A DNA stretch of 64,000 nt from Sedimentisphaerales bacterium (lineage in GTDB: Bacteria; Planctomycetota; Phycisphaerae; Sedimentisphaerales; SM23-30). Position numbers and translations under genes: made by a program. Position 1 is the stretch's first letter. The number at the start of each line of letters is the position of its first letter. Shown one piece after another: positions 4,056 to 58,082 of this stretch. The stretch lies in assembly GCA_028281535.1 (NCBI GenBank), contig JANQJS010000049.1, positions 62,001 through 126,000 of the forward strand. Direction: 5' to 3'. Below the pieces are notes generated by a model. That model ran no database searches, was not told the DNA's origin, and was given only the letters and a program-made list of their open reading frames with translations.

Positions 4056-4132
4056 TAATGTAATTCAATGGCACATTTTGATAAATCTTCAACTAAAATT
4101 TTGACAAGACATTAGTGTCAAGGAGGCACAAA

Positions 4133-9200: not shown

Positions 9201-11982
9201 TGGTGAAAATATTATTGAAGTTGAAGGTACTGATAATACTGGATGGTCTAGTGGGGATGCTGTATCTGTTAATCGATTTAATGATAACACCGCCCCAGTT
9301 TTAATAAATCTATCTATTTCTCAAAGTGCTTTCAGACCAAGTGAAATAGTCGTTCTAACAGCAACAATCACAGACGATAATTCTGGTGTTGATGAAAGTT
9401 CAGTAGCTGTTGAAATTGAAATACCAGATGAAACTGTTTTAAATACCCTTAATTTAAATTTAGTTTCAGGTAATGATTATTCTACAAATTGGGATACAAC
9501 AGGGCAGGTTTCTGGGACTTACTACGTTGATCTTTCTGCCTGTGATAGTGAAGGAATTCCTAATTGCCTTAGCGAAAATAATGCAGGATCTTTCATTGTC
9601 AACGAAGCTCCATCATGTAATATTACTGCACCAACTAGTGATGTAGTCATTGGAGCGGGTAATACGTTTTTACTGGAATGGAATAGTTCAGATGCAGATA
9701 GCAATTCTCTTTCATCATTATATCTTGATGTAGATGGAAACCCTGCTTCTGGTTTAATCCCAGTTCCAGGTGGATTAGGACTAAATGAAGCCGTGACGAA
9801 TTTAGAGTTAAATGCAAATGATTTTTCCGATGGTGAATATTATGTTGTTGTAGAAACCTCAGATGAATATGGCACAGTTCATACTATTGCTACAGGAAAG
9901 ATCACCATATTTTTACATGATTTATGTACAAATGCTTTAAGTATTGAGCAAGGAATTCCATATAATGGTTCCAGTGTTGGGGCAACAGGTTCGAATAATA
10001 GCAGCTGTGGCATTAATGACCCTAACGATGTATGGCACTCTTTTTCCCCACAAGAATCTTGCCATTATAACATCAGTCTTTGTGGCAGTGGATTTGACAC
10101 CACACTTTCTATTTTTGATGGATGTGGGGGGGCAGAATTAGCTTGTAATAATAATTATTGTAATTTTCAATCTCTTGTCACAATAGGTTTAAAATCAGGG
10201 CACACATATTTAATTCGTATATCTGGTGAAAATGATGCTACGGGTGACTATACATTGAATATTTCTAAGGTAGCCAAAGGTGATCTAGATTTAGACAATG
10301 ATTCTGATATTTTAGATTTGAATTTATTTGTTCCTAACTGGCTTGATCCGAATTGTAGTTATCCTGATTGGTGTAATAGGGCTGATCAGGATTTAAGTGG
10401 TAATGTAAACGCTAAAGATTTCTCAAATATTTCAAATAATTGGCTGAATGAGGACCCAAACATAAGTGATCCCAACTTTAGTTATATAATTACAACTTAT
10501 GCAACCCTACCTCTAGGGGTCGCTGCTCAACTCGATTTTGATTCTTCGGGATATCTATATGCAGGTATTGACGGATATGGTTCTACAATTTCAATTTATC
10601 GTGTAAGTCCAGGAGGGGCTTCTGTAGCACCTTATGGGCCAGTTGCTTTTTCAGGTCCATACTCTGTTGCTGTAGATGATGAAGGTTTATTTACAGGAAT
10701 GCCGGGGGCGATATTGGTTGGTGATTCCGGAAAAGTATCTATTATAGACCCCAATGAAAATTCTCAAACATTGACAACTTTTAATGGGCGAGCAGAGCGT
10801 TTGACGCTAAGTAGTGCTGGGAGGCCTTTCTTTTGTAATGCATCAAGTGGTGAATCAAGTATTTATGAAATTCTCGGTGCAACTTTGGATGAAATATATG
10901 AAGATGGTTGTGCTTGTGGCCCTTATGATATCGCTATAAACTCTTCTGATCAAATATTTACAACATATTCAAATGGGGAGATTATGCTTAATAATATTGA
11001 TGGGGCTATCATAACAGATCCATATGCTTCACTGGGCCAAAACGCTAGTATGTATATTGAGGTTGGGCCTGGAGGTCATTGGGATACAGATCTTTATATG
11101 GGAACCAACACAGGATTTCTTTACAGAATTAATTCTACGGGCCAATTAACAGAGATAGCACGTGATTTGGGTAGTATACGTGATTTAACTTTTGGTCCTG
11201 ATGGTGCAATGTATCTCTCGGTCGATCAAGATTCTAAAATTCTAAAAGTTACTTACGAATCGATAAGTGAAGATACTCAATTAACCGGGCCTATGGTCTT
11301 AGTGGATGCGGGTTCTTTTCCTTATCAAAATACTGCCAATCCGCAAAACTGGGTTTATGTTGATACTTTTTTGATTGGAAAATACGAGGTGGCCAATTCT
11401 CAATATGTCCAGTTTCTTAATGCTGCTGATCCTGATGGCAATTATTGGGATAGTAATCAAGAGATAATGCAAAATGGTAGTCCCGGAAACTATAGCTATG
11501 TAGTACAAGTAGGTAGAGAAAGTTATCCCGTTCGATATGTTAGCTTTAATGATGCGCAAGCTTATTGTGCTTGGTTAAGTGGGCAAACCAGCCAAGTGTA
11601 TCGTTTACCGACAGAACATGAATGGGAAAAAGTTGCAGGATGGAACCCAATTGAACAGCATCATTATACTTATGGATATAATCAGGATATTCATGGTTGT
11701 GAATGGCTGAATTATGATAGTTGCTATGGTTTATTACCAGTTGGAAGTTTTAATGGAACAGATGGAAAGCAAGATGCTAAATCTTATTATGGATGTTATG
11801 ATATGAGTGGTAATCTCCGAGAACATACTTCTACGATATGGTCGGGTACCAGCAATGTTATACGTGGCGGTTACTGGCTTGACAATGAATCGGACTGCAG
11901 GGTAATCACACGTGGTGGTGGCGATCCTCCTACAACGAGAGCGAAGGATGTCGGATTTCGTATCGTCCTAGATTTAAATTAA
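6262..11982 (+). CDS. Giant secreted multidomain protein: Ig-like, propeller, dockerin-like, C-terminal FGE-sulfatase-like domain
   Basis: 1906 residues with an N-terminal signal segment (to about 31) and a strong ribosome-binding site. Rough order: unknown N-terminal domain; choice-of-anchor-D/ASPM-like Ig domain (about 281-398, ends QISGTG); Big_1-like Ig domains (400-593); a WD40-like propeller (601-913); further Ig-like domains (917-1220); a PPC-like domain (1220-1335); two dockerin-like repeats (about 1340-1400, GDLDLDNDSDILDLNLF and DQDLSGNVNAKDFS); an NHL/SMP-30-like propeller (1412-1667); and an FGE-sulfatase (SUMF1-fold) domain (1677-1906: PTEHEWEKVAGW, YDMSGNLREH, VIRGGYW, GFRIV). 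The closely spaced cysteine pair of true formylglycine-generating enzymes is not visible, so the last domain is more likely binding or structural than catalytic. Probably cell-surface. Confidence 0.85.
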   Translation: MGKNNIAKYSILKKNLIIFILLLNYDYLQADETIGLEGKAWPPFIINQVYTPWCDEAIHLFGGTMCKSSAHDLDNNGQWDIAEPLLLNHRALAGAFQIGTSNLWTIDTIRQCFRVPYTGSYRGRLTFTLNQKAIAVGATFYGESRSDFDIVLRAGLYDDGTLIGGLGTESLYTSPPWDFWEQSMHATIDLFLALYPQGIWIEAGTVVLDYAEDVLSSGEVDDARINNRLYNFDFLVDLESGVDYEWLIQIDSTCFAQSFTLLGNQISLINTVVQVDNVQISPNYPELVVTETSNTQNDNQIEFGNIPAGVQSTETFTVTNNGGTNLLIGSWVSSNGAFTLLPNNPYGVGGDVTLAPGESMDVDITFSPQSEINYSGQIGISSNDPINPNYYLQISGTGVASRTAINVTATPPTTNINTPVTISVTVYDDFGSLVGAGSQVDFVTTDSGQWSNYDSLSTFGVYGLTNSQGVASVTWTPNDIGIDAITATSEFGESGNTSVNVAVETLNFTTELNKISGDESSSFYLFRATITDQNSQPIAFENVSFQTTKGTLQNTDTSTNAAGECETNITTTESGPVIITVTIFGQAHSTSGVFQVGAIPSFPAGRILPVGITINSLDLSSDGTKLALGGNTSVASVNINTEVIQSGNFGEINNGILAVASNDNGNMIGLGISFRQRGIVTVGGSLTGTFPITNSSEGIGDGSAAAWLGSKLILGHQITSTKPNQFSLYDTNASLLSKTYFTTDDVEDIRRIVVHPVSSSQFAAISEGPDSSNHNYIYYGSLSGNTISSINYFLTPFENRGLAWSADGSQLAVGSGPNTAQIAVYNTSALGSGTPSATIVSILGDAEHIAFSDDGTYMAYAGDGSDDIYIHNASNWSAIYHIISNQGCKGLEWIPGTHTLITGGGQQIQYINLDDTQLPNVSITSPSNGHQTQDSTINIIGQITDSNGIDSARLRNNAGVWEDLTLDGSGNFNHVVSLVLGENIIEVEGTDNTGWSSGDAVSVNRFNDNTAPVLINLSISQSAFRPSEIVVLTATITDDNSGVDESSVAVEIEIPDETVLNTLNLNLVSGNDYSTNWDTTGQVSGTYYVDLSACDSEGIPNCLSENNAGSFIVNEAPSCNITAPTSDVVIGAGNTFLLEWNSSDADSNSLSSLYLDVDGNPASGLIPVPGGLGLNEAVTNLELNANDFSDGEYYVVVETSDEYGTVHTIATGKITIFLHDLCTNALSIEQGIPYNGSSVGATGSNNSSCGINDPNDVWHSFSPQESCHYNISLCGSGFDTTLSIFDGCGGAELACNNNYCNFQSLVTIGLKSGHTYLIRISGENDATGDYTLNISKVAKGDLDLDNDSDILDLNLFVPNWLDPNCSYPDWCNRADQDLSGNVNAKDFSNISNNWLNEDPNISDPNFSYIITTYATLPLGVAAQLDFDSSGYLYAGIDGYGSTISIYRVSPGGASVAPYGPVAFSGPYSVAVDDEGLFTGMPGAILVGDSGKVSIIDPNENSQTLTTFNGRAERLTLSSAGRPFFCNASSGESSIYEILGATLDEIYEDGCACGPYDIAINSSDQIFTTYSNGEIMLNNIDGAIITDPYASLGQNASMYIEVGPGGHWDTDLYMGTNTGFLYRINSTGQLTEIARDLGSIRDLTFGPDGAMYLSVDQDSKILKVTYESISEDTQLTGPMVLVDAGSFPYQNTANPQNWVYVDTFLIGKYEVANSQYVQFLNAADPDGNYWDSNQEIMQNGSPGNYSYVVQVGRESYPVRYVSFNDAQAYCAWLSGQTSQVYRLPTEHEWEKVAGWNPIEQHHYTYGYNQDIHGCEWLNYDSCYGLLPVGSFNGTDGKQDAKSYYGCYDMSGNLREHTSTIWSGTSNVIRGGYWLDNESDCRVITRGGGDPPTTRAKDVGFRIVLDLN

Positions 11983-15865: not shown

Positions 15866-16070
15866 GATAGCTTTCTTCTATACTTTGGCTAGGTTCTGAA
15901 GCTGGCAGAGGGGGGTGAGATGTTTAGATTTACAGCTAGAAACACTAGAAAAATGGGGGAAAATGCATAAAAAAAATCATTCTGCATAAAACCTGCATAA
16001 ATTTAGTCAGCATTAAATAGCGTTAATTCACCCTGTTTTTTTAAGTTGTTATCTCTTAAAGAGATAGAAA
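15866..16070. other. Spacer with three TGCATAAA direct repeats
   Basis: Between the 442-residue protein start and tRNA-Pro. It holds TGCATAAA at 15964, 15983 and 15994, all in the same direction, and a small palindrome TATCTCTTAAAGAGATA at about 16050-16066 just past the tRNA 3' end. No gene is seen. Confidence 0.4.
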
Positions 16071-16145
16071 TCGGGGCGACAGGACTTGAACCTGCGACCT
16101 CAGCACCCCCAGTGCTGCGCGCTAGCCAAACTGCGCCACGCCCCG
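16071..16145 (-). tRNA. tRNA-Pro (anticodon GGG)
   Basis: Reading the minus strand, a seven-base acceptor stem CGGGGCG pairs with CGCCCCG, followed by discriminator A. The anticodon arm is CAGCA-CTGGGGG-TGCTG, giving anticodon GGG (plus positions 16108-16110). The T arm contains GGTTCAAGTCC. Length is 75 bases and CCA is not encoded. The four-arm layout is complete. Confidence 0.93.
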
Positions 16146-16304
16146 AACCAGATTTGTTGCCAAATCTGTAATTCGTTATATTAGCGGATTTTAGCTTTTA
16201 GGTCAAACATTGCTTAAGGCATTTGTCAGTTGTTGATATATAATGAGTTATGGAAGGAAATGGTCAAAGATCGTTTGGGGGCCCAAACTTTGTTTGAATT
16301 TTTC

Positions 16305-21645: not shown

Positions 21646-21728
21646 GTAAAAGCCTTATTTGTTAATATCTTAATATTAAGTTAACCTGAAAAGGAAGATT
21701 CCGGTGGTAATACACACAAATGTGTGAT

Positions 21729-22206
21729 GAGTGGGCGAGTAAGCCGAGTTCTGTTTGTCGTTAGACAGACGGCCATTTATCTGGGCTGACAGTTGCCTGC
21801 CAGCTCGCCTTGCGGCAGCAACCTACCCGAGTCTCAAGTGCGTCGGGCCGACGCTTGACTCTGTTTGGTCTTGCAGGAGGTGGGGTTTACCCTGCCAGGT
21901 TTGTCACCAAACCCGCGGTGCGCTCTTACCGCACCATTTCACCCTTACCCTCGAAAGGGCGGTATCTTTTCTGTGGCACTTTCCCTGGGATCGCTCCCGG
22001 TGGCCGTTAGCCACCACCTTGCCCTGTCCTGCTCGGACTTTCCTCCCGCAGTCTTTAGGCCGGGCCTTAACCGGTATTTCGTAGCATAAGTTTCCAGCTT
22101 GTGATTTAAAAAGAACTTTTCTTATTAATCTCAAGCACGGATGCTTGAACTACGTTACCGAGCATGGCCCGGCCTAACTACCTGCGAGCGGCCGTCACGC
22201 CCACTC
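21729..22206 (-). ncRNA. rnpB: RNase P RNA, bacterial class A
   Basis: 478 bases. The 5' and 3' ends pair as a perfect nine-base P1 helix (GAGTGGGCG with CGCCCACTC). Universal elements are present on the minus strand: GAGGAAAGTCCGAGC (CR-II), ACAGAAAAGATACCGCC, GGTAAGGGTGAAATGGTGCG, AAACCCCACC in the L15 region, and the 3' segment AGAACTCGGCTTA. The RNA is the catalytic subunit that matures tRNA 5' ends. The candidate -10 box TATAAT is at 22220-22215 with eight bases to the start. ORFs read across this locus are accidental. Confidence 0.96.
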
Positions 22207-28667: not shown

Positions 28668-31600
28668 TCAACCTGAGCAACAGGTAATGACATTTTCTGC
28701 AGAGTTGTATGTCAACCCTGATGCCGTAATATCATCCACACAGAATGTAAAGTTTGGTTTCTTCACATCAGTACTTGTAGTAATGACAGCTACACCATTC
28801 GCATCGGTAACGGCATTGAGTGTTTCATTAAAATCACCTGTAAAAGTACCTGTCACAGTAGCGCCGGCTATCGGATTACCACAATTATCTTGAACGGTAA
28901 TCGTTGCACGCCCAAATCGTCGTCCTTGGCTACCATTCACTTCACTACAAGCAAGTGCTTCAACATGGGTTGTCGCAGGCGTACATCCGCTGCTTGATGT
29001 TGTTGCAGATTCAGAGGTAGAGAACGCAGTTGTATTGCCTGCGCTATCACGACTTTGTGTGCGATAGGTATAGGTTGTTGACGCATTGAGACCGACATCG
29101 GTATAGCTTGGGGAAGACTGCCAACCAGAATCGGTGCCGCCACCATTGCCACTGGTTTCATCAAATTGATATTCCACTGGTGTTGATGGATCTGTCGCTG
29201 TGGTTGCTGTCATGCTGATATTATCACTTCCACCAGCTGTTGGAACGGATGACCAGGTCGATGGGTCGGGACTCGGAGGTGTTGTGTCTCCACCGCCGCC
29301 ACCTGCGGAGGTCAGAATCGCAAGTTGATCGATAAAGATCGTATCCAGGTTACGATTGCCCTGGCTCTGATCGGTATCTTTCACACGAACAAACACATTA
29401 CCCGTTAATGAAGAAGGCAAGCTAAATTGTTGTGCGTTATCATCGTCTGATGTTTTGGTTACGGTAACCATATCAATATAATTCACATCATCTGTTGAAT
29501 AAGCAAAGACAAAATTATCAGCTTCTGCATTAGGGGTATGATAGGCTTCAACAACAAATGCTACCGCTGGTCCGGGCAAGTTAAATGTCCATTTATGTTC
29601 GAGGAAGCTATGGCGATTCGAAGGTTTGCCACCGCTTTCCCGTTCCTGTATGGATTCATAGACATTATCACTGGTGTGTGTGTCGGTAAAACTACCAGAA
29701 ACAGTTCCAGAAACAGCAACATCGGCATTCGCAAGATTTGTCGCAACACCTACTGTAATGACACCATCATGCAATGGTGAACCATGAATGTGGCAATGAT
29801 AGTTGTATGAATCAAAACCGGCATCACCTGTTGAGTTGTTGAGGAATGCTTGATCGAAAGTGACTTCCAGGGTTGTTCCGGCAGGATTCGTTGTAGCTGG
29901 ATCTGCTGTTGAGGCAAAAAGAATCTGGCTCGGATTATTATCAAAGAAGGTATGTGCGCCTGACAAACCAGACCAGACATTATGGCCACCAGCGACAAAG
30001 GTCCATTGTACAGTATCACCGACATTGATCGTGATGTTATCCGGTGTCATGGTATTACCCGGCCCAACCGTGATATCGACAAAACCATCTTCAGGATCTG
30101 TCGTTGCAGAAGCTGACGTTGAATAGCTACCTGTGTTGCCCAGACTATCACGTGCACGTACGCGATAGGTGTACTGTGTGCCAGCGTCCAGTTCAAAATC
30201 GAAATAGGTTTCTACCTGCTGCCAACCGCTATCAGAGCCGCCTGGATTTCCTGATGTTTCATCAAATTCATATTCAATCGGTAGTGCAGGATCGCTGGCG
30301 GTTGTTGCCGTCATTGTGATGACCGCATCGCCAAAAGCTGCCGGTGCGGAAGCAAATGTCATTGGGTTTGGTGTTGGAGGATCATTATCTGGTGCCGGAT
30401 CTGTCGTTGCGCAAGATGCACTGGATGCAGTACCAGTGTTACCTACGCTATCACGCATTTGTACGGTATAACAATATTGTGTGATCGGATTCAAACGGAG
30501 TCGGTATAAACGGCACTTTGTTGCCAGCCGCTGCTGGTTCCGCCTGGATTACCACTGGTTTCTACAAATGAATATTCAATTGGTGTACTGGCATCTGTTC
30601 CTGTTGTTGCGGTCATGCTAATCGCTGTATCACTAGTCGCACTTGGTGCTGAAGCAAACGTCGCTGGATTGGGTGTGGGAGGATCCGTATCAGGAACCAC
30701 GCCGCCGCCAATATTGATCCAACTTGCTGTTGAAGGAACTTTCGTACCAGAATTATCTGATAGAATAAATAGCATGTAATATCCTGGAGGTACCAGGTTG
30801 CGATTGGTTGGAATGTTTACCGTTAGTGAAGGTCCGTTATCGGTAAATGATACTGGTACACCAATCATATTATAGGTGAAGCTATGTGTTGCAGAGCCTG
30901 GACGTCGCAATACAACTTCTGTGATTGGGTTGCTGGAAGAATAATTTACTGTAATGGCATCGCCATAACTTGCCGTTGTGGGTGCCGTACTAATAGAGGG
31001 TTGCGGACCTGCGGAGAGATAGTCAGGTGAATAGATCTGAATTTGATCGGTTTCACCAAATTCACCTGATCCACCATTGCCTTCGCCACCGGAAACAATG
31101 ATTTTGCCATCCGGCATCAAAACACCCGATGTATGATAAGCACGATTGAGAGACATATTTGCTGTATTTGTCCAGCTGTTCGCTACTGGGTCATATAATT
31201 CTGTTGATGTGCCCGAACCATAGACTAGAACTGTTCCATCGATTAATAGCGTTGCCAAAAAGTAAGAACGTCCAAAATTCATATTGGCCGCAGCAGAATA
31301 TTGCGGGCTTGCAGCTTGAGGATCTACGATTGAAACGGTATTCGAATTTACCGCTGTTTCATCAATACGGTCGCCACCAGCAGCCATGATACGACCATCA
31401 TGTAGTCTAACATATATTGCCTGGAGACGTCCGGCTGGCTCACCACCTCCGGGACCAGGTGTTTGAGGATCTGTTGGACCATTGATTACGGTACTGGTAT
31501 TTGTGTCGGTGTTGATATCATAAAACCATGAATCTGCCGCGACACCACAATGAAAGACTCGAAAGATATTTGGATTAGCGTTTTGAACCGATGTCAGAAA

Positions 31601-32204
31601 TAATCGAGGATAAGCGTTTGCTACATCTTGATATTGTAATACATTACCGCCGCTATTCAATAATGTCACGCTGTCAGTATCTGGATCATATACCTCTGCG
31701 GATAACAAATTTGGAGATACACCACCGACACCTGTACCTCCGAAGGTAATCGCCTTGCCATTACCCATGATTAAGGTCGAAGGGTACCACCGGTCCTCAT
31801 TCGTTGCGGTATTGGCAACCGCTGGAAACGTTTCTGTAACCGGATCGAATCGACCAATATTTCCTTGTGCTTCGCCATCAACCATCCAGGAATGTTCCAT
31901 CAGCTAAAACGACATGGCCGGCACAAAAATAGTTGTTGGTAGGTCCTGTGTTGCCAGTTGTACCATCACTGGTTGGATTCGCTGGGTTAAAGGCTCGCCA
32001 GGGAAATGTGCTGGTGCAGCAACCATCTCTAAATGAATAGACGAAAACGCGATCTGTATGAAGCATGGTCATATGAATAGCTTCGACACCACCTGAACCA
32101 ATCGGGGCTGTCCAAGACCCTTGTGCAAATAAGATTGATGGCATTAGACAAGTGACAAGAAAAATAAAGGTAATGATCATTTGTTTTATTACTTTTGTTT
32201 TCAT
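28668..32204 (-). pseudogene. Frameshifted copper radical oxidase / cupredoxin fusion (paralogue of 32943-38045)
   Basis: Three adjoining frames line up end to end with the intact downstream paralogue: 32204-31878, 31900-30491 and 30494-28668. An extra G at about 31886-31887 breaks FLMVDGEA, and a missing base near 30496 breaks YTDSGLNP. Otherwise no stop occurs in 3.5 kb. Order: signal peptide, galactose-oxidase-like Kelch propeller, DUF1929-like domain (LRRPGSATHSFTYNM), Fn3-like repeats, a cupredoxin domain (GGHNVWSG, YHCHIHG), a 150-residue beta domain, another Fn3-like repeat and an Ig-like end (Cys-rich). Two point frameshifts may mean recent decay or sequencing error. AAAGGATG precedes the start. 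Confidence 0.8.
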
Positions 32205-32942
32205 AATCTACATCCTTTTAAAATTCATGAATACTCTATCTTAAGTCCCAAAAATTATTTTGTATAGGCGTACACCTCCTTTGCTAATTATTTTGAACGT
32301 AAGTTGGTACTCAAAAAGAGTCGACCGATCAGCAATGTCTAAGAGTTGATTGTGCATATACACCATCACCTTGAATCAAGAATTCTTGATGTACCAGTTT
32401 CCCTTCCGTAAGTTCATAAACTTATGGAACTAATATGATGATATATTTCTACACAACATTTCTATGTTTTAGAACATAGAGTCAAAATAACCGAAATGAT
32501 TTACATATGACTCAAAAAGGGCGGTGCTAGAGGTGAAAAATTAGTTTAGAATTATGTACCCTTCAAATTTGAACATATCGCACAAATAGATTAAATTCAA
32601 GGTAAAACCACTGTTTTTATAGTCTTTTGGTAATTTTTAACGTGAAAATCAATGTAGGTGATTGGAATGTCTTATGTTAATAATTTATTTTAAATAGTTT
32701 ATAAAATTACGAAATGAGTTTTAGTATTAGTGTGTTGTCTGAAATCGATGATGGTTTTTGTGTATTAAACATGTCCCTGGGGAGAGTATGTCAGTTATTT
32801 AAACATAAAAAAACGTGGCAGGGTGTGTGTGTCTGCCACGTCAGAAATTGCGAGTATTTACATTCTAAATACTCTGTATGTTTTTTTTTATGGCAAAGCC
32901 CTGAACTTGTCAGGACTTTGCCGTTCCACTAGTTTTTCAAAA
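32205..32942. other. Intergenic region between the two oxidase genes
   Basis: 738 bases. It holds the promoter region of the upstream-facing frameshifted gene (not resolved) and two hairpins near 32813-32922 that follow the intact gene. The open frame at 32714-32932 crosses both hairpins and is not credible. The rest shows nothing clear. Confidence 0.5.
32813..32841 (-). terminator. Intrinsic terminator of the intact oxidase gene
   Basis: On the minus strand ACGTGGCAG pairs with CTGCCACGT around an 11-base GT/AC loop and runs straight into a T tract, about 100 bases after the stop. A second hairpin (GGCAAAG...CTTTGCC, 32892-32922) lies nearer the stop but lacks a T tract. Confidence 0.8.
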
Positions 32943-35900
32943 TTAATCACGAACTTGATAAGCGTCCACATGGAACTCTTCTGATGTTGAGGTTACTAAA
33001 ACCGTATGAGACCCGCAACTCAAAGAGGTATCTTCAAATGCCAGGAAGCTATCAAATGGTCCAGTACCTACATTCACCGTTTGGGCAGGGCCACCATCAA
33101 TGGACACGGTGCAACTTTGCGTTAAATCATCCAGTCTCCAAACATACAGACGGACACCATTACCATTAATGGTAAATGATGCCGTCGAGCCGGAGTTGCC
33201 GAAGTGAGCATCATTTTGGAACGCACCGCTAGCTGATACATTCGACATGCCTGAATAGCTGATGCTACCATCAGTATTGTTTACCTGAGCATTCCAGGTG
33301 GTGCCGCAACCGCCGCCTGCTTGTGTTGTTGCACAAGACTGAGAAGAGGCGGTTCCTGTATTACCTAAGCTGTCACGTGATTGGACGGTATAGCAATACT
33401 GAGTCGAGGCACTCAAGCCGCTGTCGGTGTAACTGGTTGATGTTTGCCATCCGCTATCGGTACCGCCAGGAGTGCCGCTGACATGGTTGAAATTGTATTC
33501 AACTGGTGGGCTTGCATCACTGGCCGTCGTGGCTGTCATGCTGATCGCGGTATCGCTGTCGGCATTTGGAGCGGAAGCAAAGGTTGCAGGATTCGGAGTT
33601 GGGGGATCGGTATCACCACCTCCACCACCGTTGCAACCACTGACGACAATTTGATCAATGTAAACATCATCCGCATTACCGGAAGCGTCACATCGGAATC
33701 GAAGCGTGGTTGTACTTGTCAAACTAAGTCCAGAGGATGTGACGGAATCCGTTTGTGGGCCGCCTGTATCACTGAAATCGACATCATTGACATACTGCTT
33801 CAATACGCTCCAGCTTGTGCCACCATTGGTTGAAATTTCCAGGAAGAAATCTTCGCTGCCTTCAAAGCTGATTGGGTTGTAACTGAAATCAACTTTCACA
33901 TCTTGATAAGCAGAAAGATTAATGTCATCTGAAAATGTAACTGATGTGCTGGTATCATCTTGAAGATTAACGGAGTAGGTTCCTTGAGGTCCGTTAGCGC
34001 TGGTACTCAAGATGCAGTCTGTACCGCCATCGTTCCAGTTGCTGGATGCCCAGGTGCCACCTTCAAAATCATCGGAAATCACTACGGTACATCCACCGCC
34101 ACCACCTTGCGTGGTTGCACAAGATGAGGATGAATAGCTATTGGTGTTACCTACGCTATCGCGACTGCGAACTTGGTAGCAGTATTGCGTCGAAGCACTT
34201 AGACCACCGTCGACATGAGTTGTTGACGTTTGCCAACCGCTATCGGTGGCGCCTGCACCGCCAGTCGTTTCGTTGAATTGATATTCAACCGGGTTGCTGC
34301 CTTCAGCATCGGTAGAGACTGTCGATGTGACGGTGATTTGTGAATCACTATCAGCAACGACTGAAGCGATGCTTGGTGAACTTGGTGGATTCGTATCAGG
34401 TGCGCTATCAGTGGTCGCACAAGATTGCGATGATGCTGTTCCTGTATTACCGACACTGTCTCGTGATTGAACGGTGTAACAATATTGTGTGCTAGCGTTC
34501 AATCCAGTGTCAGAGTAACTGGTAGATGTTTGCCAGGTACTATCGCTACCACCTGGATTACCTGAGGTTTCATTAAAGAAGTATTCAACCGGTGGGCTCG
34601 CATCACTGCCAGTGGTTGCTGTCATATTGATTGACGACGTTCCACCAGAAGCAGGAGCCGAAGCAAAGGTTGCAGGATTTGGTGTTGGAGGTGTGGTATC
34701 ACCGCCACCACCTTGATCTTCAAAGACAATGTAAGCGACTTGTTCACCTGTGTGAGCACGTTCGGTATCACCTAACTGATCTTCATCAATGACAAGATTG
34801 ATGTTGGTATTCGAAATTGGGTTTGCACCATAGAAAAGTGCCCAGCCACCATTGTTACCATCCATCGCGGTCAATGTTGCGATACCTACAGAGGCGCTGC
34901 CACTTAGACCTGAAACAGGTCGAGCATATGGTGGTGCATTGGTGACGCCGGCAACGCCGTCTGTTGTGACGCCTGCAGAGTAATTGACGCCATCCATTGT
35001 TCCGCTGCCAGATTCCATAACAATGTAACCGATCGTTTCATTGGCATGTGTGTTGTCTGGATCTTCATTGACAGTTTTACCAACGCTCAGTACAGATGCT
35101 GTTGGCGGCGTAGTTCGGGTGCCATTATGTGACCAGAATTCCACATGGCCAGCATCATTGTAAGTCATTACTTGCCCCAGTACCACTGGATTGGTATAGG
35201 TGTTGTTATAGCTGCGCGTTTCACCATTCCATGTTGCTGAAGCGTTATCTGTTACCGTCGAAGTAAATTTAACCGCCTCCATGGTAACGCCATCAGACGC
35301 TTGTGTATAAACGCCTTCTTCAACTACCATAAAATAAACATCAACACCACTTGGCGTAGCACCACCGGCGGCATCTACACGTACCTGGAAGCTACTGCCG
35401 ACGGCATTTTGAATTCGAACACTTCCTGGAGGAGCGGTATTGTCATAATTTGGTGTTGCAACTACCACCATGGAGTTATAACTGCTGGACAAGTTAACTG
35501 TGGTCCAACTGCTACCCACGCCACTGACCACACCGGATTCAAGATTAATTCCACCGCCACCAGCGCCGCCTAAAACGGTAATGGTGCCAAAGTGCAATGC
35601 CGAACCATGAATATGGCAATGGTAATTATATTTATCAACGCCAGCATCACCTGTGGAGGCATCCAGGAACGCTTGGTCAAACAATGCAGTAAAGGTTGAG
35701 TTTGTTGCATTTAGCGTTAATGGATCTGACGTTGAGGCAAAGAGCATCGTGCCGCCAGAAGGTGTGCCATCCCATGGCGGATCACCATCAAAAACTGTAT
35801 GACCACCTGATACACCTGACCAAACATTATGGCTGTCATTCATAAAGGTCCATTGAACAGAATCGCCAACGTTGATCACAAGATCTTGTGGAATCATTGT

Positions 35901-38045
35901 ATTACCAGGGCCAACGGAGACATCGACGTTGCCATCTTCCGGATCCGTTGTAGCCGATTGACTGGTAGACCAGTTGCCAATATTGCCCAAACCATCACGA
36001 GCGCGAACACGATAAGTATATTGTGTTGCAGGTTGCAATTCGAAATCAAAATAAGTTTCTGATTGTGTCCAACCACTGTCTGTTCCACCTGGATTGCCAG
36101 ACGTTTCATCGAATTGATATTCGACCGGTGTACTAGGATCGGTGGCTAAGACCGAACGCATTGTAATAGCGACATCCCCAACAGCCGATGGCGTCTGAGT
36201 CCATGTGAGTGGGTTCGGTGTAGGTGGTGTGGTATCTGGTGCAGCCTGTGTCGTGGCACAAGAAGTGCTGCCCCAATTACCTGTGTTGCCCAGGCTGTCA
36301 CGGCTACGCGTGCGGTAGCAATATTGTGTGCTTGGTGACAATCCGGTATCGGTATAATTTGTACTAGATAGCCATGGACTATCGCTACCGCCAGCATTAC
36401 CTGAGGTTTCATCAAAATCATATTCAATTGGCGGGCTTGCATCTGAACCTGTGGTGGCTGTCATGCTAATTGCCGTATCGCTATCAGCACTTGGCGCAGA
36501 TGCGAAAGTGCCAGGATTCGGTGTAGGTGGATCGGTATCTGGAGGAGGGCCGCTACCAGAAATTTGAATCCAGTTGGCAACCGATGGAATCAGCGTACTT
36601 CCTGAATTTCTGAAGATCATTAAGTAATAGTAACCAGGAGGGACTAAGTTTGGATTTGAAGGAATCGTTACATTTAAACTTGCGCCTTGGTCTGTAAAGC
36701 TAACAGGAACGCTGATCATGTTGTAAGTGAATCCGTGTGTAGATGAACCAGGCCGTCTCAGGGTTACTTTGGTAATAGCTGAGCTGGATGAGTAACCAAC
36801 GGAGATGACTTGGCCATAGCCCGCAGTTGAAGGAGCTGAGCTGATCGAAGGGCGTGCACCCGCTGACAAGTAATTTGGTGAATAAATTTGAATTTGATCA
36901 GTTTCGCCAAATTCACCTGAGCCACCATTACCTTCACCACCAGAGACAATCACTTTTCCATCAGGAAGCAAGACGCCTGATGTATGATAGCCACGACCAA
37001 TACTCATATTCGCGGCACCTTCCCAGGAATTGCTGACTGGATTGAAGATTTCCGTTCGTGTGCCGATACCATAGGTGAGCAGGCGACCATCGGATAATAA
37101 GGTGGATAGGAAATAGGAGTTGCCACCACCGGGAATACTTGGGCCTGAACTCCAACTTGGACTTGCTGCTTCAGGATCAATTAGAGCTGTTGTGCTTGTT
37201 TCTCCTGATTCATTAAAGTTCAAACCGCCTAATGCCATGACGCGGCCATCTTCAAATCGGGCGTAGGTACCCTGCAAGCGTCCTTTACTGTCGCCACTGC
37301 CGGGAGCGCCAGAATCTATCGGTCCGGCTGTGCGACTACCAGTATTATTGTCTGTGTTAATTGTAAAAAATTGTGATTCCGCATCTGGTCCGGGATTAAA
37401 AATTTCAAAAATATTTGGGTTAGCATTTTGTGTTGATAGCAAGATTAAACGAGGGTAGGCATCTGGATCTTGAAATAACATTAAGTTACCGCAACCATTA
37501 ACGCATGTTGACGTATTGGTATCTGGATCAAATATTTCTGCTGATAAATCCTGAGGATTTCCACCGCCGGGGACATTGCCACCAAAGGTGACTATTTTTC
37601 CATTACCCAGAACTATGGTTGATGGATACCAGCGATCATTCGATGTTGCTGTATTGCCAACAGGATTCGTAAAGGTTTCTGAGGCTGTATTAAAGCGACC
37701 AATATTGCCAAATGCTTCACCATCTACCATGAGGAAGTCACCATTCGGTAACACGGTATGGCCGGCACAAAAATAGTTATTGCTTGGTCCCGTATTGTAT
37801 GTCGTACCTGACGTCGGGTTGCCAGGTAGAAAAATACGTGCAGGAAAATTTGATGTACAACACCCATCCCTAAATGAATAAACAAAAACCTTTCCGGTAT
37901 GCAAGCTGGTCATATGAATAGCCTCGACACCTCCTGAGCCGATAGGGGCTGTCCATGACCCTTGTCCATATAGGACTGACGGTAAGATCAGTGCTATGGC
38001 AATGATCGAGGTTAAACATATAGAGTTTTTTACTTTGTTTTCCAT
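32943..38045 (-). CDS. Secreted copper radical oxidase (galactose/glyoxal oxidase-like) fused to Fn3-like repeats and a cupredoxin
   Basis: 1700 residues, signal peptide about 1-28. Residues 30-385 form a Kelch-type propeller and 385-497 a DUF1929-like domain. Candidate copper-radical residues fit the family: Cys93 in NYFCAG, Tyr140 in RWYPS (thioether pair), Tyr353-His354 in GYHTSG, His437 in STHGF. Two Fn3-like repeats (500-700) precede a cupredoxin (705-825) with ligands His739, Cys810 and His813 (NYHCHIHG); the usual axial Met is not seen. Then an H-type-lectin-like beta region (830-1110), three more Fn3-like repeats, a MAM/discoidin-like domain and a C-terminal carbohydrate-binding-like domain. 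GAAAGGAAG precedes the start. It likely oxidises alcohols or aldehydes of extracellular sugars, passing electrons to oxygen or the cupredoxin; this is inference. Confidence 0.85.
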   Translation of the reverse strand: MENKVKNSICLTSIIAIALILPSVLYGQGSWTAPIGSGGVEAIHMTSLHTGKVFVYSFRDGCCTSNFPARIFLPGNPTSGTTYNTGPSNNYFCAGHTVLPNGDFLMVDGEAFGNIGRFNTASETFTNPVGNTATSNDRWYPSTIVLGNGKIVTFGGNVPGGGNPQDLSAEIFDPDTNTSTCVNGCGNLMLFQDPDAYPRLILLSTQNANPNIFEIFNPGPDAESQFFTINTDNNTGSRTAGPIDSGAPGSGDSKGRLQGTYARFEDGRVMALGGLNFNESGETSTTALIDPEAASPSWSSGPSIPGGGNSYFLSTLLSDGRLLTYGIGTRTEIFNPVSNSWEGAANMSIGRGYHTSGVLLPDGKVIVSGGEGNGGSGEFGETDQIQIYSPNYLSAGARPSISSAPSTAGYGQVISVGYSSSSAITKVTLRRPGSSTHGFTYNMISVPVSFTDQGASLNVTIPSNPNLVPPGYYYLMIFRNSGSTLIPSVANWIQISGSGPPPDTDPPTPNPGTFASAPSADSDTAISMTATTGSDASPPIEYDFDETSGNAGGSDSPWLSSTNYTDTGLSPSTQYCYRTRSRDSLGNTGNWGSTSCATTQAAPDTTPPTPNPLTWTQTPSAVGDVAITMRSVLATDPSTPVEYQFDETSGNPGGTDSGWTQSETYFDFELQPATQYTYRVRARDGLGNIGNWSTSQSATTDPEDGNVDVSVGPGNTMIPQDLVINVGDSVQWTFMNDSHNVWSGVSGGHTVFDGDPPWDGTPSGGTMLFASTSDPLTLNATNSTFTALFDQAFLDASTGDAGVDKYNYHCHIHGSALHFGTITVLGGAGGGGINLESGVVSGVGSSWTTVNLSSSYNSMVVVATPNYDNTAPPGSVRIQNAVGSSFQVRVDAAGGATPSGVDVYFMVVEEGVYTQASDGVTMEAVKFTSTVTDNASATWNGETRSYNNTYTNPVVLGQVMTYNDAGHVEFWSHNGTRTTPPTASVLSVGKTVNEDPDNTHANETIGYIVMESGSGTMDGVNYSAGVTTDGVAGVTNAPPYARPVSGLSGSASVGIATLTAMDGNNGGWALFYGANPISNTNINLVIDEDQLGDTERAHTGEQVAYIVFEDQGGGGDTTPPTPNPATFASAPASGGTSSINMTATTGSDASPPVEYFFNETSGNPGGSDSTWQTSTSYSDTGLNASTQYCYTVQSRDSVGNTGTASSQSCATTDSAPDTNPPSSPSIASVVADSDSQITVTSTVSTDAEGSNPVEYQFNETTGGAGATDSGWQTSTTHVDGGLSASTQYCYQVRSRDSVGNTNSYSSSSCATTQGGGGGCTVVISDDFEGGTWASSNWNDGGTDCILSTSANGPQGTYSVNLQDDTSTSVTFSDDINLSAYQDVKVDFSYNPISFEGSEDFFLEISTNGGTSWSVLKQYVNDVDFSDTGGPQTDSVTSSGLSLTSTTTLRFRCDASGNADDVYIDQIVVSGCNGGGGGDTDPPTPNPATFASAPNADSDTAISMTATTASDASPPVEYNFNHVSGTPGGTDSGWQTSTSYTDSGLSASTQYCYTVQSRDSLGNTGTASSQSCATTQAGGGCGTTWNAQVNNTDGSISYSGMSNVSASGAFQNDAHFGNSGSTASFTINGNGVRLYVWRLDDLTQSCTVSIDGGPAQTVNVGTGPFDSFLAFEDTSLSCGSHTVLVTSTSEEFHVDAYQVRD

Positions 38046-38578
38046 ACTCTTAACTTCCTTTCGTCTTGTTAGTTTTTTTTATGTCACTTCACGATATAAC
38101 AGATCACTAAACACACACTTGAATTAATGAAGTAAACAGGGGGGAATTGGTAAAAGCGCAGGGGCAGATTCCAAAGATGGTTTGAAGCAATAAGAAGTGA
38201 TGTTTGCTTACGCATAGAATACCATTTCAGTTGCCTGGAATATTTTGCTAAGGCGCAAAACCTTCCAAGACTGTTAAAATGTTTAACAGAATACTAAATA
38301 ATGATATTTCTACACGAAAAGACGTTTATTGTTGAATAACACAATTATCCAACAGAGAGACGAAAGAGTTTGATGAATCTTAGAAGTGTTCTCGAAGTAA
38401 CTCCACTTACTTTACATATTCGAAGTATAGCACATAAAATTGTAGATCCAAGTAAATTTCTAGTTTTTAATAGAAATTAATTATTTTTTGCGATCAATTC
38501 CATACTGGTCATACCTTCGATAACTTGATAGAATCATGGCAGGCGTAGTATTACATATTTATTATAAGTGGAAGACAA
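38046..38578. other. Divergent intergenic region before lgt
   Basis: 533 AT-rich bases between the divergent oxidase gene and lgt. No convincing promoter pair, operator or RNA structure was recognised. GGAAG before 38579 is the lgt ribosome-binding site. Confidence 0.5.
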
Positions 38579-52157: not shown

Positions 52158-53897
52158 TTGGGTCAACCATCACAAAAAGGTCAGGATAATCTAGTGCGAG
52201 TGATTGTCATTGATGATAATCCCGAAATTCACAACGATTTCAAACAGATTCTACAGCATTCTCCCAGCTCATCGCATTTGGATGGGTTAGAAGATTTTCT
52301 TTTTGATGGTGATAATGCGCATCGAGATCAATTTGCTTCTGAGCTTAACTACGAATTATCATTTGCTACGCAAGGCCAGGAAGGTGTGCAGATGGTTAAA
52401 GATGCGATCCTGCAAAAGAAACCTTTTGTGCAAGCCTTTGTCGATATGCGCATGCCACCCGGATGGGATGGGCTCGAGACAATTGAAAATCTTTGGCGAG
52501 TCGATCCGACCATTCAGGTTGTGATTGTGACAGCCTATTCTGATTATACCTGGCGAGATATTTCTGATCGTCTGGGCGATACCGGAAATCTACTCGTACT
52601 AAAAAAACCATTTGATAGCGTAGAAGTTGCACAAATCACCAATACGCTGGCACGTAAATGGAAGTTTGCACAACAAGCCCGACTGCGTATGCATGATTTA
52701 AATAACATGGTTCAAACACGTACCCATGAATTGGAGATTGCGCGTCAAAGAGCCGAAGCAAGTTGTGCAATTAAAGGCGAATTTCTGGCAAACATGAGTC
52801 ATGAAATTCGTACACCGATGAATGCCATCATTGGTTTTAGTGAAATGTTGATGGACGATGAACTCAAGCAAGAGCAGCATGAATTTGTAGAAACGATTAA
52901 CGATGCTGCCAAGAACCTCTTGTGCATTGTGAATGATATTTTGGATTTTTCCAAGATGGAAGCGGGCAAGCTTCATATTGCTAAAGAACCAACCGACATT
53001 GAATCTGTTTTGGATAGTATTGAAGCATTGCATCGATTCAGTGCTCAGCAAAGTGGTATTGAGTTTTCAGTCAATCGATTGACGTCCATGCCAGATGTGA
53101 TGATGACAGATCCAACGCGTTTGCGTCAGTGTCTGGTGAACTTATTGAGTAATGCGATTAAGTTTACCCGTGAAGGCCATGTAAAACTCAATGTGTCACA
53201 GGAAACCATTAAAGATATTCCAGTGATGCAATTTGAAATTGAAGATACAGGCATTGGGATTGAACAGGATAAATTAGGCTTGATTTTCGAGGCATTTTCT
53301 CAAGCTGATACTTCCATTATCAAAGATTTTGGTGGTACAGGTTTGGGGTTATCTATTACTAAAAAATTGGTAGAGTTGATGGGTGGAAAAATTTCTTTGA
53401 CCAGCGAGTTTGGCGTTGGCACGACTTTTACTCTTCGCTTGCCATTGGGAATGCCTGTTGGTGGGGTTCATGATTCCCACGCTAATGAGTCTTCTCAGAA
53501 ATTACTTTGTGCAGACCATCAATATTCAGGGACGGTGCTTGTGGTTGAAGATGCGATTAGTAATTTAAAAATTATTACCAAGCTTCTGGAAAGAATGGGG
53601 CTAGAGGTCGTGACGGCTGCGGATGGTATGCAAGCCATCGAAGCGGTTGAGAAACAACCATTCGATTTGATTTTCATGGATATGCAGATGCCAGTGATGG
53701 ATGGGTATACGGCCACGGCACAACTTAAAAAAATGAAAATAAAGACGCCGGTTATTGCACTTACTGCTAATGTGATGGTGGGCGATCGCGAAAAATGTCT
53801 CAAAGCCGGTTGTGATGGATTTGTCACGAAGCCAATCGATCGTCATGATTTAATCGCGACATTGGATACATTTTTGCTTAATAAAGTGACAGCTTAA
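52158..53897 (+). CDS. Hybrid sensor histidine kinase with receiver domains at both ends
   Basis: 579 residues from TTG 52158, preceded by AAGGA. An N-terminal receiver-like domain (about 13-165) has VIVIDDNPEIH and phospho-acceptor Asp96 in FVDMRMPPG, with an insertion between. A coiled linker leads to HisKA (phospho-His215 in MSHEIRTPMNAIIGF), HATPase_c (LVNLLSNAIKF, DTGIGIEQDKL, GGTGLGLSI) and a C-terminal receiver (Asp508 in FMDMQMPVMDGY, Lys in VTKPID). There is no membrane helix, so it is cytoplasmic and likely receives its signal through the N-terminal receiver. It lies upstream of the EPS/exosortase operon and could feed into it; this is only positional. Confidence 0.9.
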   Translation: MGQPSQKGQDNLVRVIVIDDNPEIHNDFKQILQHSPSSSHLDGLEDFLFDGDNAHRDQFASELNYELSFATQGQEGVQMVKDAILQKKPFVQAFVDMRMPPGWDGLETIENLWRVDPTIQVVIVTAYSDYTWRDISDRLGDTGNLLVLKKPFDSVEVAQITNTLARKWKFAQQARLRMHDLNNMVQTRTHELEIARQRAEASCAIKGEFLANMSHEIRTPMNAIIGFSEMLMDDELKQEQHEFVETINDAAKNLLCIVNDILDFSKMEAGKLHIAKEPTDIESVLDSIEALHRFSAQQSGIEFSVNRLTSMPDVMMTDPTRLRQCLVNLLSNAIKFTREGHVKLNVSQETIKDIPVMQFEIEDTGIGIEQDKLGLIFEAFSQADTSIIKDFGGTGLGLSITKKLVELMGGKISLTSEFGVGTTFTLRLPLGMPVGGVHDSHANESSQKLLCADHQYSGTVLVVEDAISNLKIITKLLERMGLEVVTAADGMQAIEAVEKQPFDLIFMDMQMPVMDGYTATAQLKKMKIKTPVIALTANVMVGDREKCLKAGCDGFVTKPIDRHDLIATLDTFLLNKVTA

Positions 53898-54585
53898 CGA
53901 TCGATCCGGCAATATCAATATTAAGTGTCAGGGATAAAATTACATAATTCATTTTATGTCAGTAGATTAAGACTTTTTTAGTCCTCGAGTCCAATAGAGG
54001 CGCGATCTGTCATTCCCAATTAAAATCATTTTGTGGTTATCTTAGGCTTGGGCTGCTTTGTGATCGATGTAACATGTTTAACTACAATTGCATACAACTA
54101 TTTATGTTCTGCGTCTAACAGCTTTTTAACATTGACTTTTCAGGGTGTTTTTCTTAACATTAACCAGTTAAATTAGATTATTACCCTCCTCATTGCTTTT
54201 GATTCTAGATATGTTTTGCGTATCGAATGGTATTGAGCAATATGGATTGAAGACATAGTGGTTTTGTTAACGTGAGATAGGAATTTTACTTTCCAAAAGG
54301 GTTCAAGCGTTAGTCCATAATTATTTCCAGGGATATAGTTATCGGACGTTTTAGTTTGCGACCATTGTTTTCAGTACTGATAATCACACTTTTTAGATAA
54401 TGGTACTTTTGATCAGTGTTTATGCCAAGTTTTGGCTTTTAGAAAAAAACGCATAACTTGGTTAATAGTTTGATGTTAAGTTAAAAAACATCAAGCGGTA
54501 TTTTAGAAAATCCGATAATAAAGTAGAAGGTGCACCCAATAGGTGTTTATTAATTCACAGGCTTGAATCAGGAATTAGTCACATA
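53898..54585. other. Long region before the EPS/exosortase operon with nested hairpins
   Basis: 688 bases with no gene. The last 170 bases contain CCAAGTT (54425-54431) pairing with AACTTGG (54455-54461), and TTGATGTT (54470-54477) pairing with AACATCAA (54487-54494). If transcribed, this would be a structured leader. It matches no riboswitch class I know, and no sigma-54 promoter motif was found. Confidence 0.45.
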
Positions 54586-56178
54586 ATGCGAACTTTGAGA
54601 TTACAGATTTGTTTGGTTGGGATTCTGGCATTTTTGCTGTCATCTTTTACTGGCTGTAAGAATGAACCGGATTCCATGGGACGCTATCGTGCGACGCCAG
54701 TGACGAATATCATTTTGGATAGCCTGGGGGTGGTTGATGAGGAGCCTGATGTTTTTGCCGGTGCCCGTGATCCAATGCCAAAAGATTTAAGGCCTCAGCC
54801 TCAGGAGTATTTAATTCAATCGGGTGATTTTCTTCGAATTCGAATTTTTGAATTGTTCAGTGCTGGCATCCAGTGGGAAGATAATTTGATCGTTAATGAT
54901 ACGGGACGAATTACATTGCCAGTGGTTGGTTCATTGATTGCTAAAGATCTGACTGAACTTGAATTGACAGAAGCCATCGAAAATTTATTGGTTCCTGATA
55001 TTATTCGTGATCCACAGGTTGGCGTTGTTGTTGTTCAGCCTCAACAGAAGATCTTTACGATTCAGGGGAACATTAATGGGCCAGGGTCATATCAACTAAC
55101 GGGTGCAGATTTCAGAATTTCCAAGGCGTTTGCTTTTGCAGGAGGTATTCCTCCACTTAATTCTGACTATGCTTATGTTATTCGAACTCTGGATGAAGAT
55201 GAGCTTTATGAGCGAAGCATGTCTGAGCAGGATAATATGTTTGTACCTGTTGAGGGTGATCTGCAATTAGAGCCGCCATTTTCACAACCTGGTTCGATGG
55301 ATAATTCTGAAGCATTAGAGCCGGTTGATCAAGAACAAGAATTACTGGATAGTGTGGCTCCAATGGTGCTGCTTGGTTCATTTGAATCTGGCAATACCCC
55401 GTCATCTGATTCGATGGTGACATTGGATATTTTTGAAGAACTAGACAAAGCTGAGCGAGCACGTAACGCTCAAGATGCTTTTGTTGAAGACGAGACAGAT
55501 GTCGAATCTGCCAATCCGCAATTGAACTCAGCTCAAGATGCCGCAGGTAAAGCTGTTCGTCAGGATGGCCAATGGACTCTTGGTGGGCAGGGCAATAATG
55601 AGCTAGATAGTTTTGACGATTTTGGATTGCCATCATCACCTGACTTGCCATCGCAGCCAGGATCAGATGAATGGGGATTTGACGAATTGTCTGGGGCAGG
55701 TTTAACCCAGGAAGTTATCCGTATCAATTTGAAGAAGTTACGTAGTGGCGATCCAACTCAAAATATCGTTCTGCGTCCAGGTGATGATATTCATGTACCC
55801 GCCAATGCATCCGGATTATTTTATGTGTATGGTCAGGTATCCCGGCCGGGTCCATATAATATGAGCGGTGGTCAGAAAATGACCTTAAGGCAAGCGGTAT
55901 TAGGTACTGCAGGGCCATTATCGCCAACAGCCTGGCCGAGTCGTTGTGAAATTACTCGTCGAATTGGTGATTTTGAGGAAGTAACCGCTCGTGTTAATTT
56001 AGAGAAAATTATTGAAGGAACGGCCCCAGATTACTATATCAAGCCTGGAGATCAGATTAATATTGGCTCCCATCCTGTGGCACGTTGGATTGCCGTTATT
56101 CGACAAAGCTTTCGTGCAACCTATGGCTTCGGATTTGTATATGATCGAAACTTTGCAGATAAAGATTTCGGCAATTAA
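54586..56178 (+). CDS. Polysaccharide export lipoprotein (Wza-like) with acidic insert
   Basis: 530 residues. Signal with lipobox ending at Cys24 (SSFTGC). Poly_export domain about 75-140 (YLIQSGDFLRIRIFELFS, LPVVGSLIAKDLTELELTEA), first SLBB about 145-205 (FTIQGNINGPGSYQLTG). A low-complexity acidic segment of about 170 residues (205-375) interrupts, then a second SLBB about 385-470 (FYVYGQVSRPGPYNMSGG) and a last one to the end. It would form the outer-membrane export channel for exopolysaccharide. First gene of the operon that includes the exosortase. Confidence 0.88.
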   Translation: MRTLRLQICLVGILAFLLSSFTGCKNEPDSMGRYRATPVTNIILDSLGVVDEEPDVFAGARDPMPKDLRPQPQEYLIQSGDFLRIRIFELFSAGIQWEDNLIVNDTGRITLPVVGSLIAKDLTELELTEAIENLLVPDIIRDPQVGVVVVQPQQKIFTIQGNINGPGSYQLTGADFRISKAFAFAGGIPPLNSDYAYVIRTLDEDELYERSMSEQDNMFVPVEGDLQLEPPFSQPGSMDNSEALEPVDQEQELLDSVAPMVLLGSFESGNTPSSDSMVTLDIFEELDKAERARNAQDAFVEDETDVESANPQLNSAQDAAGKAVRQDGQWTLGGQGNNELDSFDDFGLPSSPDLPSQPGSDEWGFDELSGAGLTQEVIRINLKKLRSGDPTQNIVLRPGDDIHVPANASGLFYVYGQVSRPGPYNMSGGQKMTLRQAVLGTAGPLSPTAWPSRCEITRRIGDFEEVTARVNLEKIIEGTAPDYYIKPGDQINIGSHPVARWIAVIRQSFRATYGFGFVYDRNFADKDFGN

Positions 56179-56244
56179 TTCCACTTTGTTTCTCTAAATG
56201 ACAATCAATTTTGTATGTCAAGCGTTCAGGTTAATCTTTGATGG

Positions 56245-56286
56245 TTGTAGGGAACGTTAGGTGTACTATTATAATAGACTTGTTAA
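56245..56286 (+). promoter_or_regulatory. Possible promoter just before the exosortase start
   Basis: TATAAT at 56270-56275 with TTGTAG (56245-56250) 19 bases upstream. The exosortase ATG begins 12 bases after the -10 box and has no clear ribosome-binding site, so a leaderless or very short-leader mRNA is possible. Confidence 0.35.
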
Positions 56287-58036: not shown

Positions 58037-58082
58037 ATTGTCTTATTGAAAATAAAGGATGGAAGATTAACAGGTAAAAGAT

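Follow-up and report, generated by a model that had tools for sequence, protein, structure and literature searches.

We analysed a window of 64,000 nucleotides from a Sedimentisphaerales bacterium and observed two neighbouring genes on its minus strand, each of which joins an oxidase head to Fn3-like modules and a cupredoxin domain (Table 1). The initial annotation had placed this pair at 28668-38045, and these coordinates were correct. It had also described both genes as coding for secreted chains of this kind. This holds for copy 1, which is one open frame with a signal-like sequence at its N-terminus. Copy 2 (28668-32204) has its domains in the same order, but two single-base frameshifts, near 31885 and 30490, interrupt its frame.

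Elsewhere in the window we noted an RNase P RNA of class A (21724-22077, minus strand), a tRNA-Pro(GGG) (16070-16146, minus strand), a protein with a C-type lectin domain and kelch repeats that is without the oxidase E-set (4115-5956), and a 1906-residue protein that combines HYDIN/ASH-like, Big_1 and propeller-like parts with an FGE-sulfatase domain at its C-terminus (6262-11982). At 52158-63218, a hybrid histidine kinase, a polysaccharide export protein and a 1711-residue TPR protein adjoin in an exopolysaccharide-type locus.

Table 1. Features of the two fusion genes and of related proteins. Positions are those of the window, except where a prefixed label is given.
Feature	Position	Strand	Basis or remark
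Copy 1, intact fusion ORF	32943..38045	-	1700 aa; ORF and domain matches
Copy 1, signal-like N-terminus MENKVKNSICLTSIIAIALILPSVLYG, residues 1-27	37965..38045	-	Sequence; K-rich and hydrophobic start recurs in paralogs
Copy 1, copper radical oxidase head, kelch-type propeller, residues 29-397 (Cys93, Trp139-Tyr140, Tyr353-His354)	36855..37961	-	Profiles, alignment, predicted fold
Copy 1, GO-like E-set, residues 398-496, copper ligand His437	36558..36854	-	PF09118, E 6e-18
Copy 1, two Fn3/Ig-like spacer modules, residues ~505-700	35946..36533	-	Domain matches, predicted structure
Copy 1, cupredoxin, residues 706-828 (His739, Cys810, His813, axial His818)	35562..35930	-	Alignment, Copper-bind
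Copy 1, module without family match, residues 836-1112	34710..35540	-	Conserved between copies; low model confidence
Copy 1, two more Fn3-like modules, residues 1113-1310	34116..34709	-	Domain matches, predicted structure
Copy 1, Reelin-subrepeat-like module, residues 1318-1470	33636..34094	-	PF21471, E 3e-5, cut-off not reached
Copy 1, Fn3-like module, residues ~1476-1577	33315..33620	-	PF09294 at 1529-1574
Copy 1, CE2_N/CBM35-like jelly roll, residues 1580-1700	32946..33308	-	PF17996, E 7e-5; Z 14.3 to 2waa
Copy 2, first frame: runs from the signal sequence to FCAGH (with the Cys) and stops early	31878..32204	-	ORF
Copy 2, frameshift 1, one base more than copy 1	31884..31890	-	Comparison with copy 1
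Copy 2, second frame: remaining oxidase head, E-set, start of first Fn3-like module	30491..31900	-	ORF, domain matches
Copy 2, frameshift 2, one base fewer than copy 1	30483..30500	-	Comparison with copy 1
Copy 2, third frame: Fn3-like module, axial-His cupredoxin, C-terminal modules	28668..30494	-	ORF, domain matches, alignment
Four giant copies with Asp/Glu for the axial Tyr	C17:29065-37908, C39:3-6758, C53:36205-44367, C53:53828-62086		
Giant proteins reusing the C-terminal modules	L034:5123-10477, L059:6591-12590, L050:5781-9332		

The head of copy 1 matched kelch motifs and the GO-like_E_set profile, the latter over residues 398-495. The NCBIfam profile for GlxA (NF052501) gave an E of 3e-45 and 154.6 bits, which does not reach its equivalog cut-off of 800 bits, and the best sequence match in the PDB was GlxA itself (4unm, E 1e-34). 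By these matches the head is a relative of GlxA and not a GlxA orthologue. The structure of residues 27-832 was predicted with AlphaFold2 from an alignment of 22 paralogs (pLDDT 83.5, pTM 0.61, with the orientation of the domains unsure). When this model was used in a fold search the match list was filled by the head, and the structures matched were a bacterial galactose oxidase, 9g43 (Z 44.4), and GlxA, 4unm (Z 42.8, 29% identity), each over 430 residues at 2.2 A. The catalytic residues named in the initial annotation (Cys93, Tyr140, Tyr353-His354 and His437) are all present, and align with the cofactor and copper-ligand motifs of GlxA and galactose oxidase. Judged by its predicted fold and these residues, copy 1 is a secreted copper radical oxidase of the GlxA/galactose-oxidase type.

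The neighbouring residue, Trp139, aligns with Trp288 of GlxA (numbering as in PMC13094651, residue numbers and chain index differing by 30). The orientation of this second-shell tryptophan is common to GlxA and the fungal aldehyde oxidases, and the activity profile of GlxA is aldehyde-oxidase-like (PMC13094651). From the position of Trp139 we infer that the site of copy 1 is GlxA/aldehyde-oxidase-like rather than galactose-oxidase-like.

The cupredoxin of copy 1 matched the Copper-bind profile (PF00127) weakly (E 0.008, 17.1 bits against a cut-off of 21.2), and searched alone against PDB sequences it found no match. The cupredoxin of a paralog scored over the cut-off (26.4 bits, E 9e-6), and genome-wide there were 26 Copper-bind matches over the cut-off, 25 of which lie on ORFs of the fusion family, copy 1 not being among them. 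The type-1 copper ligands proposed earlier for copy 1 (His739, Cys810 and His813) are present, and these equatorial His, Cys and His residues were invariant in all 31 distinct cupredoxins aligned. By sequence, the domain appears to be a plastocyanin-type cupredoxin. It shares the His...Cys-x2-His pattern of the plastocyanin/halocyanin-type proteins (PF00127), but differs from them in that eight copies have an axial His in place of Met.

The axial ligand had been left unnamed; in copy 1 it is His818 and not Met. Both window copies belong to the eight with His, the other 23 of the 31 cupredoxins having Met. Since the loops VMRG and LHFG are equal in length at this site, the change is a substitution and not a shift in the alignment. 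We know of no natural cupredoxin with an axial His, and to our knowledge a mononuclear His2-Cys-His site is otherwise found only in engineered azurin. The engineered azurin Met121His has green-site-like spectra (PMC4059628). By analogy, the axial His is expected to alter the copper site, and it might make the cupredoxin a poor oxidant.

Following the cupredoxin, copy 1 has a module of 277 residues (836-1112) that found no family match in profile searches, which leaves the label 'lectin-like', used for it in the initial annotation, without family support. This module is up to ~80% identical between copies, a conservation above that of the heads, and it recurs in proteins that have no oxidase head. 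The view that the C-terminus is carbohydrate-binding-like fared better, as the last 121 residues resemble CE2_N/CBM35 jelly rolls. They matched 2waa over 111 residues at 2.2 A, while the match to PF17996 falls short of the cut-off and the C-terminal model has a pLDDT of 59. We regard this end as a putative carbohydrate-binding module. The C-terminal modules are also reused with other heads in giant secreted proteins (Table 1), which have a PQQ-type propeller with a GDSL lipase, a G8/CEMIP-like part, or Fn3 modules only.

In copy 2, the frame that starts at 32204 stops after 108 residues. We found no further stops, and the dN/dS of the head against its nearest relative was 0.11. Copy 2 is probably a pseudogene and, with no other stops and this low ratio, most simply a recent one; a possible alternative reading is that the frameshifts are sequencing errors. 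Programmed frameshifting was also considered and was rejected, since the two indels are opposite in sign, there is no slippery run, and the GT-rich leader seen at copy 1 is absent upstream of copy 2.

This leader (GTGTGTG ... GTGAAGTG) lies at 38085..38120 on the minus strand, ~40-75 nt 5' of the start codon of copy 1. Defined as GTGTGTG, GTGTGAGTG or GTGAAGTG no more than 170 nt before the first ATG, it was observed at 22 of 31 family genes and at 11 of 123 other ORFs in the same stretches, and in most family genes it stands 40-80 nt ahead of the start. The enrichment gave a Fisher p of 7e-12, which is only a guide as the motif was picked post hoc and the copies are related. A shared leader suggests that the family is under common control.

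We also estimated the size of the family. The source genome (4.44 Mb in 67 contigs, 99.4% complete, contamination 0.01%) was found by profile search to have 31 GO-like E-set domains, 30 of them joined to a cupredoxin. Of the 31 loci, 29 lie in open ORFs that include a cupredoxin, another is the frameshifted copy 2, and C5:6438 lacks a cupredoxin. The family ORFs add up to ~142 kb, or ~3% of the genome, and since several contigs end inside family genes, the true copy number may be higher. At the end of one contig, C30, there is part of a 16S rRNA whose EUB338 probe site, ACCTCCACGGAGGGCTGCAG, is unusual.

When relatives were examined, the GO-like E-set was absent from all 12 other genomes of the taxonomic family, was present as a partial domain in one of 46 genomes of the order, and was present in 27 of 392 genomes of the phylum, the source genome included, elsewhere mostly once and at most nine times. 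At the best E-set locus of the 26 other phylum genomes there was no such cupredoxin within 500 residues, a distance that a much longer spacer would escape. When 85,000 species genomes were scanned with the fusion alignment, the only relatives were two head-only proteins from Anaerolineae at ~33% identity; the scan rested on two short patterns with our own genome left out, and does not by itself prove absence. No fusion was found in the viral contigs searched, and a plasmid search gave 23 records with heads only. The initial annotation had not recognised this architecture as a described one. We likewise found no description of it in the open-licence literature and no other genome with the fusion, none being seen among the 392 phylum genomes. 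Other secreted proteins of the class have cupredoxins of this family with an axial Met, so the module is probably local in origin and the fusion probably formed in the source lineage.

The histories of the two parts were compared. The eight axial-His cupredoxins form one clade (support 97/90; 96% of bootstrap trees), while the seven heads bearing them require seven changes on the head tree, and their monophyly was rejected (p-AU 4e-6). As the cupredoxins are one clade and their heads are scattered, the sequences indicate that heads and cupredoxins have been re-paired repeatedly. Close pairs of heads have a dN/dS of ~0.1-0.2, and the median for the cupredoxins is 0.23; by these ratios both head and cupredoxin are under purifying selection, and both parts have been kept working. 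Recent gene conversion was not seen, as no two copies shared 93% identity over 180 bases or more, and close copy pairs have a dS of at least 0.4. Most copies have a spacer of 209-214 residues between head and cupredoxin; two have 312-315, one has 632 and four have 812-819. Of the 31 heads, 26 have every first-shell residue. The first-shell Cys of copy 2 sits in another frame, and in the four longest ORFs (2252-2948 aa) the axial Tyr is replaced by Asp or Glu, with the Cys, the Trp-Tyr and both His residues kept.

Copper radical oxidases act on alcohols or aldehydes, which they oxidise, and convert oxygen to hydrogen peroxide, and their resting Cu(II)-Tyr form needs to lose one electron; a fungal enzyme is activated in this way by a co-secreted peroxidase (PMC9770985). 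The maturation of GlxA needs the DyP peroxidase DtpA together with Sco (PMC4736821). In the source genome, at 99.4% completeness, we found neither a DyP nor a class I-III haem peroxidase, nor an LPMO_10 as a candidate user of peroxide, and one SCO1 homologue was present. Since no peroxidase of these classes was found and one-electron activation is needed elsewhere, the cupredoxin is favoured as a covalent one-electron partner. The explanation that we prefer, tentatively and at somewhat less than even confidence, is that the window holds one intact and one frameshifted member of an amplified oxidase-cupredoxin family in which the cupredoxin would be the tethered one-electron partner of the head.

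In these proteins, Fn3-like spacers link each GlxA-type head to its plastocyanin-type cupredoxin, and modules of an adhesive or carbohydrate-binding-like kind are joined on as well. The head would oxidise aldehydes or primary alcohols, perhaps on glycans held by the C-terminal modules, and would turn oxygen into hydrogen peroxide. The most speculative step is that the cupredoxin would oxidise the resting Cu(II)-Tyr head to the active Cu(II)-radical form, either by bending back to the head of its own chain or by acting on that of a neighbouring molecule, and might in this way stand in for the peroxidase of other systems. The initial annotation had proposed a self-contained, intramolecular redox machine, which stays a hypothesis. 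With variable spacers and exchangeable pairings, the two coppers of one chain are unlikely to be linked by a fixed electron path, and the spacer range of ~210-819 residues together with the swapped cupredoxins gives no sign of a specific docking surface. From the sequences, the better fit is a long flexible tether, or electron transfer from one molecule to its neighbour. Against an activating role of the cupredoxin, radical oxidases can also become active with no partner of their own. The fuller proposal, that the genome has a combinatorial set of ~30 oxidases with covalent cupredoxin activators replacing the peroxidase, and with a natural axial-His site in addition, we consider rather unlikely as a whole.

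A serious rival, which we also rate as unlikely, is that the cupredoxin is a store or delivery module that loads the head with scarce extracellular copper, without taking part in redox catalysis. That pairings are exchangeable and spacers variable suits a generic supply better than a fixed electron path, the maturation of GlxA uses a copper-trafficking chain of ECuC and Sco (PMC4736821), the SCO1 homologue is present here, and a Met-to-His change would shift the copper affinity. However, the His-Cys-His set is strict in all 31 copies, as is typical for electron-transfer sites, and supply gives no clear reason for one cupredoxin per head. A slightly less probable explanation is that the proteins are mainly surface or matrix proteins (adhesins or recognition proteins) diversified by duplication and shuffling, with oxidation secondary, e.g. 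in matrix cross-linking. The Fn3-rich architecture, the CBM35/CE2_N-like ends, the repeated re-pairing and the reuse of the C-terminal modules in giant proteins with other heads agree with this, but a purely structural role would not need catalytic residues that are intact in 26 of 31 heads under strong purifying selection.

It is improbable that the head is an ordinary GlxA-like oxidase and the cupredoxin a passive relic, a beta-sandwich gained by module shuffling. Swapping shows that the cupredoxin does not depend on a particular head, and unrelated secreted proteins of the class also have cupredoxins of this family; against this, the domain has been kept by 30 of 31 oxidase domains, with invariant copper ligands in 31 copies and the low median dN/dS given above. 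The copy number itself is very improbable as an artefact of assembly or contamination. Many contigs do end within family genes and short N runs occur, but such breaks would hide copies and not add them, except for genes split at contig ends. The copies differ at more than 7% of bases over any 180-base stretch, the close pairs are separated by the dS noted before, and the contamination and completeness values of the assembly also speak against it.

The closest known protein is GlxA of Streptomyces lividans (PDB 4unm, 5lqi, 5lxz), with which the fusions share the head fold, the Cys/Tyr/Tyr-His/His first shell and the second-shell Trp of RWYP. GlxA is, however, a single enzyme of ~645 residues without a cupredoxin, whereas here there are ~30 giant fusions; its working partner is the glucan synthase CslA, and DtpA and Sco take part in its maturation (PMC4736821, PMC11022532), whereas no DyP was found here. 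The fungal galactose and alcohol oxidases of CAZy AA5_2 and the bacterial 9g43 have the same propeller and E-set fold and copper ligands, but identity to them is 20-25%, and the second-shell Trp of the fusions is of the GlxA type and not at the Trp290 position of AA5_2. Extra domains are also joined to AA5 in the fungal WSC-AA5_1 proteins (PMC13094651) and in the AA5-CE3 fusion reported for Burkholderia pseudomallei (Mazurkewich 2023, cited in PMC11267884); neither has a cupredoxin as its partner, and neither is amplified to a comparable extent.

For the preferred mechanism, with the cupredoxin as one-electron partner, the closest functional analogue is the tandem peroxidase-alcohol oxidase pair of Colletotrichum, which has a dedicated one-electron partner; there, however, the partner is a separate haem peroxidase encoded head-to-head, and not a covalent cupredoxin (PMC9770985). 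The three-domain copper nitrite reductase TsNirK is a precedent for a covalent cupredoxin as proposed donor to a second copper site, its tethered cupredoxin being proposed to pass electrons within the subunit (PMC6400189). TsNirK differs from the fusions in having an unrelated catalytic domain, reductive chemistry and an axial Gln, where the fusions have Met or His.

Bacterial copper radical oxidases mostly occur as one or a few per genome, and 31 in 4.4 Mb make this genome a clear outlier in the phylum as sampled. The amplification, the re-pairing of modules and the axial-His variant are stronger findings than the redox-machine claim. The Met-to-His change has a single origin on the cupredoxin tree and was carried onto several heads, which amounts to a natural experiment on the tuning of type-1 copper. 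With a covalent cupredoxin, the natural activation of copper radical oxidases becomes directly testable. If the proposed role is true, a self-activating aldehyde or alcohol oxidase would be useful in biocatalysis, as current ones are assayed with added horseradish peroxidase.
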